From the IMG/VR virus record IMGVR_UViG_3300034141_000037, positions 1-38,372 of that record: DNA of 38,372 nucleotides; one strand, written 5' to 3'. Numbering within the stretch: the first letter of the stretch is position 1; the number at the start of each line of letters is the position of its first letter. The position numbers were made by a program, and so were the translations under genes. Positions 30,814 to 33,176 of the stretch are shown piece after piece. Under the pieces are notes generated by a model. The model saw only the letters and a list, made by a program, of their open reading frames with translations, did no database searches and was not told the DNA's origin. The DNA is from a virus.

Positions 30814-31743
30814 CTACACCTCGTCCTGTCCGAGCGCGATGTTGATCTGAGCCAGCGACGGGTACTCCTCGATCAGGTCGGCCATCAGGTTCCGACCCTC
30901 AGCGAACTCCTCGCCCTCCGGCATCACCTCCGCGCCAGGTTCCTCCCACAGGGCCACGTCAGGGTCGAGCACGTCGTCGCCCCACCCGTCCCTCTCCCAG
31001 CCCTTCCTGTCCCACCAGGAGACAGGAGGACGGTACGTGTGCGGCATCGGCCTCCCGGCGTTCGCGGCGTGGAACCGCAGGAAGTTGTTCACCATCATCA
31101 GCGTGTCGTCCAGGTAGGCGTGAGCCCGAGGACCGTGGTAGTCCCGGTAGCCCACACCCCAGTTGAACCCCTTGACGCCGAGGTGCTCCAGGTAGCAGAT
31201 GTCCGAGAAGATCCCCTCCCCGACACGAGCGCCCGACGCCTTCACCAGGTCCACCGTGAACTGGTCCTCGAACTGGTACATGACCACGTCGGTGCCACCA
31301 CGGTCGAACTCGATCATCCAGTCGTACTCCTTGAGCGGCTCGAAGAACTCCGCCGTGCTCATCCCATCCTCCTCGCCCACCGTCAGGAGGATGTCGTACT
31401 GGATGCCCAGTTTGGGCAGCAGGTCGAGGATGATGTACGCCCCCAGCCTGTCGTCCAGAGCCCGGGAGTACACCACCTCACCACCCGCCGTGTTCAGGAA
31501 GTAGCACCCACGCTCCTCGTGCGCCCCCACCGTGTCCAGGTGAGCCACCGCCAGCACGTTCGATCCGTTGTCCTGGTAGTAGTACCTGTCGTTGTCCCCG
31601 TTGCGCTCAGGGATGACGTAGGTCTCCATCCCGTACCGCTCAGCGAAGTCGTCCTCGTGCATCTCGCAGATGCGGGCCAGTGCCTTCCGGTCGAACGCAC
31701 GGGTGATCCGCCTCATCGGGCTCTTGGCCTTTCGTCTAGCCAT
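30814..31743 (-). CDS. Zinc metallopeptidase, M20/M28/M42-like
   Basis: 309 residues. The dinuclear-zinc peptidase ligands are present in order: A-V-A-H-L-D-T (H68, D70), A-L-D-D-R-L-G-A (D97/D98), T-V-G-E-E-D-G (E124 catalytic, E125), F-D-R-G-G (D147) and a C-terminal H (H203 or H208 in D-Y-H-G-P-R-A-H). This aminopeptidase/deacylase fold cleaves peptides or amide bonds. It is rare as a phage gene. It lies 5 bp after the multi-CxxC gene, implying joint expression. No signal peptide, so it acts in the cytoplasm; substrate unknown. Confidence 0.8.
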   Translation of the reverse strand: MARRKAKSPMRRITRAFDRKALARICEMHEDDFAERYGMETYVIPERNGDNDRYYYQDNGSNVLAVAHLDTVGAHEERGCYFLNTAGGEVVYSRALDDRLGAYIILDLLPKLGIQYDILLTVGEEDGMSTAEFFEPLKEYDWMIEFDRGGTDVVMYQFEDQFTVDLVKASGARVGEGIFSDICYLEHLGVKGFNWGVGYRDYHGPRAHAYLDDTLMMVNNFLRFHAANAGRPMPHTYRPPVSWWDRKGWERDGWGDDVLDPDVALWEEPGAEVMPEGEEFAEGRNLMADLIEEYPSLAQINIALGQDEV

Positions 31744-31748
31744 GGTTC

Positions 31749-33176
31749 TCAGACCTCTCTCTCGTTGTAGTACAGGTTGGAGTGCTTCTGAAGTGACAGC
31801 GACAGGCTGCCGTCCGTGTAGTGCCGTGCAATCTCCTCCGGTGCGATCAGGTAGCCCGAGTCACCGTTGACGTACATGTCCTCGTTGTCGAGGTCGGTGA
31901 CCGAGCAGGAGAACGTGATCCTCCGGTACGTCATCCCCGCCATGTGGCTCAGCAGACGAGGAGCGGCGTACCCGGACAGGTCCCCGTAGCCGTTGAACAC
32001 CACGAAAGCGTCCGGCGTCTCCGTGTTGAACGTCGGAGTCAGACCCTGGTCGTCCTGCTTCAGCGGGAACACCCACGCCCTGCCCGATGCGTAGCGGTGT
32101 CCGTAGTGGTTGTCCTTGAACGTCCGAAGCCCGAACCCACCGTTGTTCTTCAGTGCGCACCGACCCTCGTAGTACGACTGCCACCAGCACGAGTCCTCGT
32201 GAGCGAACTCCTCCGGAGACTGGTTCAACTCCCGAGTGACCTCGACCTCGAAGTCCACCGACGTGGAGTGGTCCCGAGCGATGCAACCCACTCCCGAGAT
32301 GACGTGAGCCGGAACCTTCAGACCGTAGGTCTTGTAGGCGTAGCGGCTCAGCCGCTTAGTGAAGTTGCCCTCCTTCGTCTGCCACTTGTCGCCCAACTCG
32401 CCCACGCTGACCATCGACGCCAGAGCCCGCATGTTGAGGCGCTCCTCCGCGTCCTCGATCCCCCGGGCGTAGTCCCGGAGGTAGTTGAAGATCCCCGTCA
32501 GACCCTCAGCGGAGATCACGCCAGCGGGCAGCGAGACCGTCGCCGGAGTGTCGTTGGCGAGCAACGGGTCACCGTCGTTGCGGACCATGAACCCCCGACC
32601 CGGTGCCTCGCAGTCGCATCCGTCCTCGTGCTCGTGGTCGTCCTCGTACCCGTCCGGGTAGTACCCATCGCAGTCGTTGCAGTAGGTCCAGTGCAGCCGC
32701 AGGCAGCGGTCGCACGCCTCGTCGTCGCTGAGAGTGGAGTTGAGGCTGGTGAACAGGTCCTCACAGTTGACGCACTGGTAGTAGTCGTCCACGCAGGTCT
32801 CGCACACGTCCCCGTCGCTCGTGCCAGTCATGTCATCGACCGGAGTCGAGTCACCGCATGAGGAACAGTCCTCCTTCTCTACGCCGTCGTCCTCGTCCTC
32901 GTCCTCGATGCTGTCGAACGTGGGCAGCACCGGCGCGACCTCGGGCAGCGAGGCGACGGAGTAGGTGCAGTACACGGCGCTTCGGGAGTCCCAAGCCGAG
33001 ACGCGGGTAGTCACGGTGTTGCGGTTGCCGGTCACACCATGGAACCGCACAACCTCGAACACTTGGCTTGTCTGCTGGTTTCTGATGGTTGCCCCGACCG
33101 GCAGGTGTGGGAAGTCCTCGTCCGAGAGGATCTGTCCGACCGTGAAGACGTAGCCCTCCGTTGCTGTGGTGCTCAT
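31749..33176 (-). CDS. Large multi-CxxC zinc protein, unknown
   Basis: 475 residues. The N-terminus is beta-rich (F-T-V-G-Q-I-L-S-D-E-D-F-P-H-L). About 108-200 hold at least five CxxC pairs (C-S-S-C, C-E-T-C, C-V-N-C, C-D-R-C, C-N-D-C) in acidic linkers, a row of zinc ribbons. About 290-475 are a folded domain with D-F-E-V-E-V-T-R-E-L, D-S-C-W-W-Q-S-Y and N-G-G-F-G-L-R-T-F. The acidic, Cys-rich layout suggests protein binding. It is coupled to the metallopeptidase. I do not recognise the C-terminal family. GAAAGGCAGACG precedes the ATG. Confidence 0.72.
   Translation of the reverse strand: MSTTATEGYVFTVGQILSDEDFPHLPVGATIRNQQTSQVFEVVRFHGVTGNRNTVTTRVSAWDSRSAVYCTYSVASLPEVAPVLPTFDSIEDEDEDDGVEKEDCSSCGDSTPVDDMTGTSDGDVCETCVDDYYQCVNCEDLFTSLNSTLSDDEACDRCLRLHWTYCNDCDGYYPDGYEDDHEHEDGCDCEAPGRGFMVRNDGDPLLANDTPATVSLPAGVISAEGLTGIFNYLRDYARGIEDAEERLNMRALASMVSVGELGDKWQTKEGNFTKRLSRYAYKTYGLKVPAHVISGVGCIARDHSTSVDFEVEVTRELNQSPEEFAHEDSCWWQSYYEGRCALKNNGGFGLRTFKDNHYGHRYASGRAWVFPLKQDDQGLTPTFNTETPDAFVVFNGYGDLSGYAAPRLLSHMAGMTYRRITFSCSVTDLDNEDMYVNGDSGYLIAPEEIARHYTDGSLSLSLQKHSNLYYNEREV

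Follow-up and report, generated by a model that had tools for sequence, protein, structure and literature searches.

A phage-borne gene pair of a predicted lid-less di-zinc hydrolase and a CxxC-bearing partner with a conserved Ser-Cys/Arg core

Genes and features at the locus

The window, i.e., the whole stretch of DNA analysed, was a 38,372-base virus record from IMG/VR. It carried the minus-strand genes A and B in this order (Table 1), and the spacing of 5 bp claimed in the original prediction was exact, with 5 nt between the A stop codon and the B ATG. Beyond B on the same strand lay a short ORF, the SSB gene, and a primase/helicase-like gene; with the latter two further along the strand, the A/B pair of the window stood ahead of the replication genes.

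The palindrome upstream of A, originally described as wide-spaced, was in fact perfect and contiguous, and its 14-nt core ended 17 nt upstream of the A ATG. Five mismatch-free copies of this core, ATTAGTNNACTAAT, were present in the window (at 33194, 34119, 34748, 35201, and 35439), four of which preceded a minus-strand start codon (33176, 34105, 34733, and 35185) by 13-17 nt and were followed by a purine-rich ribosome-binding-like stretch. With up to three mismatches allowed, the 18-mer occurred four times in the window versus 0.00 times expected in shuffles. Judged by sequence and placement, the repeats (33192-35452) resemble a start-associated operator such as an early regulon would use.

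Several other elements were noted in the window. The intein in the primase/helicase-like gene was inserted at the P-loop and carried a LAGLIDADG homing-endonuclease domain; residues 347-679 of the gene product displayed 43% identity to a stretch in mycobacteriophage "terminase large subunit" genes (e.g., that of Easy2Say), and thus related inteins seem to be inserted in different ATPases. Further ORFs, judged by eye from their translations, were likely of homing-endonuclease type: a LAGLIDADG-like ORF (13234-13653, plus), an HNH-like ORF (13679-14146, minus), and an HNH/AP2-like ORF just upstream of the primase/helicase gene (26880-27494, minus). An ORF near the tape-measure gene (5632-7398, plus) coded for a long unbroken glycine run, possibly a length-variable linker.

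Table 1. Coordinates of the features of the A/B locus in the window
Feature	Position	Strand	Basis or remark
Gene A	31749-33176	minus	ORF, 475 aa
Gene B	30814-31743	minus	ORF, 309 aa
Intergenic gap, A stop codon to B ATG	31744-31748		5 nt
A CxxC array, residues 104-189 (CSSC, CETC, CVNC, CDRC, CNDC, CDC)	32610-32867	minus	translation
A predicted alpha/beta core, residues 304-462, GNAT-like element order	31791-32267	minus	DSSP of model; weak Z 3.2-3.8
A invariant Ser329-Cys330	32187-32192	minus	42/42 rows of A5 alignment
A invariant Arg366	32079-32081	minus	42/42 rows of A5 alignment
B His68, predicted metal ligand; D70 next	31540-31542	minus	invariant, 36 rows
B Glu124 (predicted catalytic base) and Glu125 (predicted ligand)	31369-31374	minus	invariant, 36 rows
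B His203, predicted last metal ligand	31135-31137	minus	at least 90% of 36 rows
Perfect contiguous 18-bp palindrome CGATTAGTGCACTAATCG	33192-33209		upstream of A
SSB	29637-30077	minus	Pfam SSB E 1.4e-18
Primase/helicase-like gene, intein-interrupted	24364-27021	minus	Pfam and PHROGs searches

Gene B, a predicted di-zinc hydrolase reduced to its catalytic core

B matched PHROG 4191 ('peptidase') at E 2.8e-13 and Pfam M42 at 23.2 bits, exactly the 23.2 cut-off. Other searches gave little: tblastn of window B against INPHARED (50,697 phage records) at 1e-5 gave no match, PDB profile searches gave no useful match (the A2 profile reached M42 only at E 0.34), and NCBIfam gave one weak PepT-like match, for the Klebsiella B. 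The AlphaFold2 model of B (pLDDT 85.9) had an ordered core at about residues 8-240 and a low-confidence tail. With this model, Foldseek gave a PepT match at E 9.9e-7, and superposition on PepT, CPG2, DapE, and TET peptidases gave Z 18-21. Structure prediction and fold search, proposed at the outset for both proteins, thus assigned B an M20/M28/M42-clan fold, with a superposition on PepT 3rza (Z 21.2, rmsd 2.6 over 217 residues) that spanned residues 11-231 of B versus 0-375 of PepT.

The claim that all dinuclear-zinc ligands of an M20/M28/M42-type enzyme are intact held across the alignment: H68, D70, D97, D98, E124, E125, and D147 were invariant in 36 homologue rows, and H203 was nearly so (at least 90% of the rows). 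By the pattern of the family, H68, D97, E124, E125, D147, and H203 would be the ligands and the catalytic base. H68 and D97 were 29 residues apart, and D147 and H203 were 56 residues apart; compared with the ligand spacings of the M20 and M42 families, these distances, together with the length of the ordered core, left no space for the M20 lid or the M42 dimerisation domain, and this insert was absent from B, which would therefore be a minimal catalytic domain. In many B proteins, CxxC pairs were also located C-terminal to the catalytic domain. From its sequence and model, B is predicted to be an M20/M28/M42 (MH-clan) di-zinc hydrolase consisting of the catalytic core alone, and its most likely reaction would be the cleavage of a terminal amide bond in a small peptide or in an acyl/aminoacyl conjugate.

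Gene A, a conserved core with a variable CxxC array

The AlphaFold2 model of A (mean pLDDT 81.7) was laid out as a low-confidence N-terminal part, a zinc-ribbon-like array of five CxxC pairs, a helical segment, and an alpha/beta core with a Ser-Cys signature. Database searches with window A found no match in Pfam at E<=0.01 (weak YugN at E 0.072), in PHROGs at 0.1, in NCBIfam at 0.05, or in INPHARED by tblastn at 1e-5, and blastn likewise gave no useful match. At least five CxxC pairs had been noted; window A contained exactly five, with CDC in addition, and the whole array preceded the conserved core. Among the 42 A proteins, the Pfam double-zinc-ribbon models DZR_2 and DZR matched two and one, respectively.

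The A5 alignment comprised 42 sequences, namely, window A and 41 homologues that were 12-50% identical to it; L057, which had the same A and B as L056, was left out of alignments A5 and A6, and the zinc-ribbon fragment L060:5320-5733 was dropped as well. The fixed part of A in the 42-sequence alignment was a core of about 250 residues. The unrecognised conserved-looking domain of the original prediction proved to be real, with S329, C330, and R366 invariant in all 42 sequences and W368, N395, Y397, and N437 kept in at least 90% of them. The CxxC array was positioned N-terminal to the core in the window clade and C-terminal to it in most of the distant relatives, and it was absent from some A relatives (L052, L054, and several named phages). 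A simple CxxC adaptor, an adaptor being the role tentatively suggested at first, was accordingly rejected: the array was variable and dispensable while the Ser-Cys/Arg core stayed, so A would not be chiefly such an adaptor. An amidoligase identity was rejected as well, since no Pfam amidoligase match was found among the 42 A proteins at E<=0.01; a BFVD structural match annotated as amidoligase covered 181 columns with 20% identity.

Relation of the A core to GNAT folds

For A, structure prediction and fold search gave an alpha/beta core with weak GNAT-like matches, and Foldseek of the A model against PDB gave no match at E<=0.001. Twelve of the 50 rows listed in the structural second look covered about residues 307-420 and were GNAT-fold enzymes, by title or by the fold of the entry, with Z 3.2-3.8: HAT1 (3), malonyl-CoA decarboxylase (3), RimI-like, ATAT-2, PaiA, BH1408, and SSAT (2). 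The other rows listed matched the helical segment, the N-terminus, or a zinc finger of A. Z values of 3.2-3.8 on a predicted model may reflect a common arrangement only. The predicted order of secondary-structure elements in the core, by DSSP of the model, roughly fitted that of GNAT.

The CoA/pyrophosphate loop [QR]xxGx[GA] (after beta4) was matched in the 120 residues after Ser-Cys in 6 of the 42 A proteins, none at the expected loop position as judged from the match positions, and the Pfam GNAT models matched 0/42 at E<=0.01. When A was compared by profile with 28 GNAT sequences, the result was not significant: (i) the window superclade scored 10.6 versus a best non-artefact score of 10.5 among 40 shuffles and (ii) the SCM superclade scored 13.7 versus 11.1 for the best non-artefact shuffle, artefact shuffle scores of 125.7 and 127.8 having arisen in this comparison. 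At L081:1455-2666, in a Candidatus Coatesbacteria MAG, a PF00583 GNAT gene (E 1.3e-18) was located directly upstream of a lid-less B relative, in the slot of A, in this single genome; a search for the ATE_C family found it in 0/5 genomes. A GNAT-like fold of the modelled A core is weakly supported.

Two superclades of A

In hhalign, the merged window superclade (SCW/SCF) was aligned with the merged SCM superclade at a score of 29.9, a probability of 17%, and E 0.0015, and the Ser-Cys and the Arg of both superclades were in register. Of 60 column shuffles, 59 scored 8.4-15.9 and one scored 132.7 via a 12-column artefact. Separate sets gave lower probabilities (3.3-4.6% for W or F versus M, and <=1.3% versus K, P, and R), and the merged probability dropped to 9% on addition of the Pectobacterium set. 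Both superclades had the order SC - RA - x-x-Y - Y-x-(N/D) in common, and SCM was present in 13/13 rows of the A8 alignment. A signature regex, composed after inspecting the sequences, matched 47 of 56 A-like proteins (nine missed), 1/112 controls, and 6/1120 shuffles. On this profile and motif evidence, the two superclades are likely homologous.

Co-occurrence of A and B

IMG/VR was scanned with B profiles, yielding 13 loci at first and then 35. Of the 35 B loci, 34 had an A homologue, which was adjacent on the same strand in 33; in the two others, (i) A was about 4 kb from B at L039, on the same contig as L014 and found also by a whole-contig search and (ii) the contig ended at the start of B at L050. 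These counts included L049, L051, L061, and L063, where the matches of the A3 profile were confined, or all but confined, to the zinc ribbons and A was counted by position and SCM signature. The A stop codon and the B start were separated by <=60 nt in 25 of 34 pairs, starts being placed at the first ATG or chosen by eye. L015, L021, L053, and L065 had two or three A copies, with three near one B in L015, L053, and L065. L060 displayed two B copies and three A matches, one of them a zinc-ribbon fragment.

The loci ranged from 32 to 70% in GC, and their flanking genes were not conserved: the commonest PHROG was found in 3 of 76 neighbour proteins, which were the longer ones among 170 listed. 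The distances of A and B correlated at r 0.84 (partial r 0.75 after tetranucleotide distance; 0/2000 permutations), a correlation to which shared phage ancestry contributes; this mirror-tree comparison covered 29 of the 34 pairs, the four SCM loci and a pair separated by 775 nt having been set aside. The two-component module put forward in the original prediction is supported by this adjacency.

Distant B relatives in annotated phages were located by tblastn, and in the following named phages the gene beside the peptidase was unnamed and bore the SCM signature. An A-like gene adjoined the peptidase gene in Klebsiella phages SU503 (gp11 overlapping the peptidase gene gp12 by 1 nt) and Hope, Escherichia phage Minorna, Vibrio phage KF2 (gp16), Pectobacterium phages PhiM1 (PhiM1_09), PPWS2 (gp13), and Nobby, and Bradyrhizobium phage BDU-MI-1; in Cellulophaga phage phi38:1 (gp37), the gene order was reversed relative to the peptidase, and in Thermus phage TSP4, an A-like gene was located on each side of it. 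SU503 gp11 and gp12 matched 295 and 384 phage records, respectively, with equal counts, compared as per-genus totals, for Klebsiella (231), Vibrio (42), Escherichia (10), and Shigella (4); 51 Pectobacterium records were matched by gp12 only, yet PhiM1_09 matched the PHROG of gp11 at E 1.2e-8.

The pair lay just upstream of the DNA primase gene, with one to three small ORFs between, in SU503, PhiM1, PPWS2, Nobby, and KF2. The PhiM1-like pair has been placed in the early region, where six ORFs were conserved and the peptidase alone had a putative function (PMC6115819), and the same gene order was listed for KP34 in PMC4411677. Wherever phage gene order could be followed, the pair was encoded with early/replication genes.

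A and B were not independently distributed in the IMG/VR set, and exceptions to the pairing occurred among distant B relatives: Bacillus phages BcoS-136 and PJN02 had the peptidase with no A found, Thermus phage P23-45 had its A relative (E 1.4e-16) elsewhere in the genome, away from the peptidase, and the MAG contigs L081 and L082, with more distant B relatives, had B without A. In Enterococcus phage H1, the peptidase neighbour was unnamed and of another PHROG, and H1_5/H1_7 misfitted the signature.

Proposed function and alternatives

The maintenance of A and B together across many very different phages points to a shared job in infection. Our preferred reading, held tentatively and at somewhat less than an even chance, is that A is a transferase-type enzyme, that B is a hydrolase on the same bond or product, and that the zinc ribbons are exchangeable targeting modules. 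The pair would then be a phage-borne two-gene module whose products act on the same chemistry: A would be an enzyme whose alpha/beta core is like that of GNAT-type acyl or aminoacyl transferases, with the Ser-Cys and the Arg as candidate active-site residues, its exchangeable zinc-ribbon modules would recruit or position the target, and B would hydrolyse one amide bond on which A also works. Together, at an early stage of infection, they would attach a group to a host or phage target and remove it again, or else prepare and trim such a group. We infer the catalytic nature of A, the writer/eraser relation, the target, and the formation of an A-B complex. A bolder form of the proposal, unlikely in our estimate, would have A found a new family of GNAT-like, Ser-Cys/Arg-dependent acyl/aminoacyl transferases without the CoA loop, which together with the lid-less B would make up a writer/eraser cycle remodelling a host target early in infection in many unrelated lytic phages.

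Several other explanations were weighed against a transferase/hydrolase pair. As the main rival, A might be a non-catalytic adaptor or regulator that uses its zinc ribbons and core to capture a target and deliver it to B, or to gate B, in place of the missing lid; this would agree with the strict pairing (33/35 adjacent), with a B that has no lid or dimerisation insert, and with the CxxC arrays after the B catalytic domain in many relatives, as expected of interchangeable targeting modules, but the Ser-Cys and the Arg were invariant even where A proteins had diverged strongly and the presumed binding modules came and went, a pattern more like an active site, and we consider the adaptor role somewhat doubtful. 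The genes might instead be two separate host-takeover genes kept in one early operon without a shared substrate: adjacency alone is no proof of interaction, the A relative of P23-45 is far from the peptidase, and there are Bacillus phages with the peptidase alone. Against this, A and B were adjacent in 33/35 loci, on contigs that ranged from 32 to 70% GC and differed in the genes around the pair, and we consider mere operon neighbourhood highly improbable.

A counter-defence function, in which host defence would employ a signal or toxin of peptide, acyl, or aminoacyl type that B destroys and A senses or modifies, would suit the early gene region of PhiM1-like phages (PMC6115819) and the two or three A copies at L015, L053, and L065, as in arms-race genes. 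Against it, the pair spanned very different phages and was not patchy within close relatives (e.g., 231 Klebsiella records for each gene), and PADLOC, which lists defence and not counter-defence and with which the A proteins were scanned, gave no match for window A and only scattered weak ones among the 42 homologues (best of 42: LmuB, E 1.6e-4, one member); this function appears quite unlikely. By the same scan of A proteins, the pair was rejected as a described defence component. A role of the pair in virion maturation was considered and is conceivable; two PHROGs-recognised neighbours were portal proteins, but the PHROGs-recognised neighbours were mostly replication and nucleotide genes.

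The new part of this work is the A/B pairing and the conserved core of A, the clan of B being already known. The phage family of B was known from annotation, and no tested function for it was found in the literature searched; that literature, mostly outside subscription journals and including PMC4411677, PMC6115819, PMC7824862, and PMC7552054, likewise yielded no function of the pair or of the A family. Hundreds of sequenced phages (231 Klebsiella records by count) carry a 'peptidase' adjoining an unnamed gene. Since A and B behave as a unit across phages otherwise sharing little, the function to seek is that of the pair, and an old annotation gap becomes directly testable in culturable phages.

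Comparison with known systems

The closest known relative of B was the phage 'peptidase' of PHROG 4191, matched by 36/36 B proteins (window B plus 35) and, at E 4.7e-107, by the peptidase of Bradyrhizobium phage BDU-MI-1; it differed in being known by annotation alone, and the window B clade was just distantly related to it. PepT, CPG2, DapE, and TET (M20/M28/M42) shared the fold and the metal ligands of the B model, whereas B had no lid or dimerisation domain. For A, the genes of PHROGs 6980, 13313, and 23053 (KP34-like, PhiM1-like, and Thermus phages) had the same place beside the peptidase and the SCM and Arg signature, while their homology to window A was just suggestive at the hhalign values given above. 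Zinc-ribbon/treble-clef proteins shared with the window A N-terminus the paired CxxC knuckles (five). GNAT transferases roughly resembled the modelled A core in the order of secondary-structure elements, but A had no CoA loop, no Pfam GNAT match, and weak structural Z values. Rac of phiKMV-like phages, described in PMC7552054 as a GNAT transferase in an early phage host-takeover setting, shared that setting with A and was set beside it by description only.
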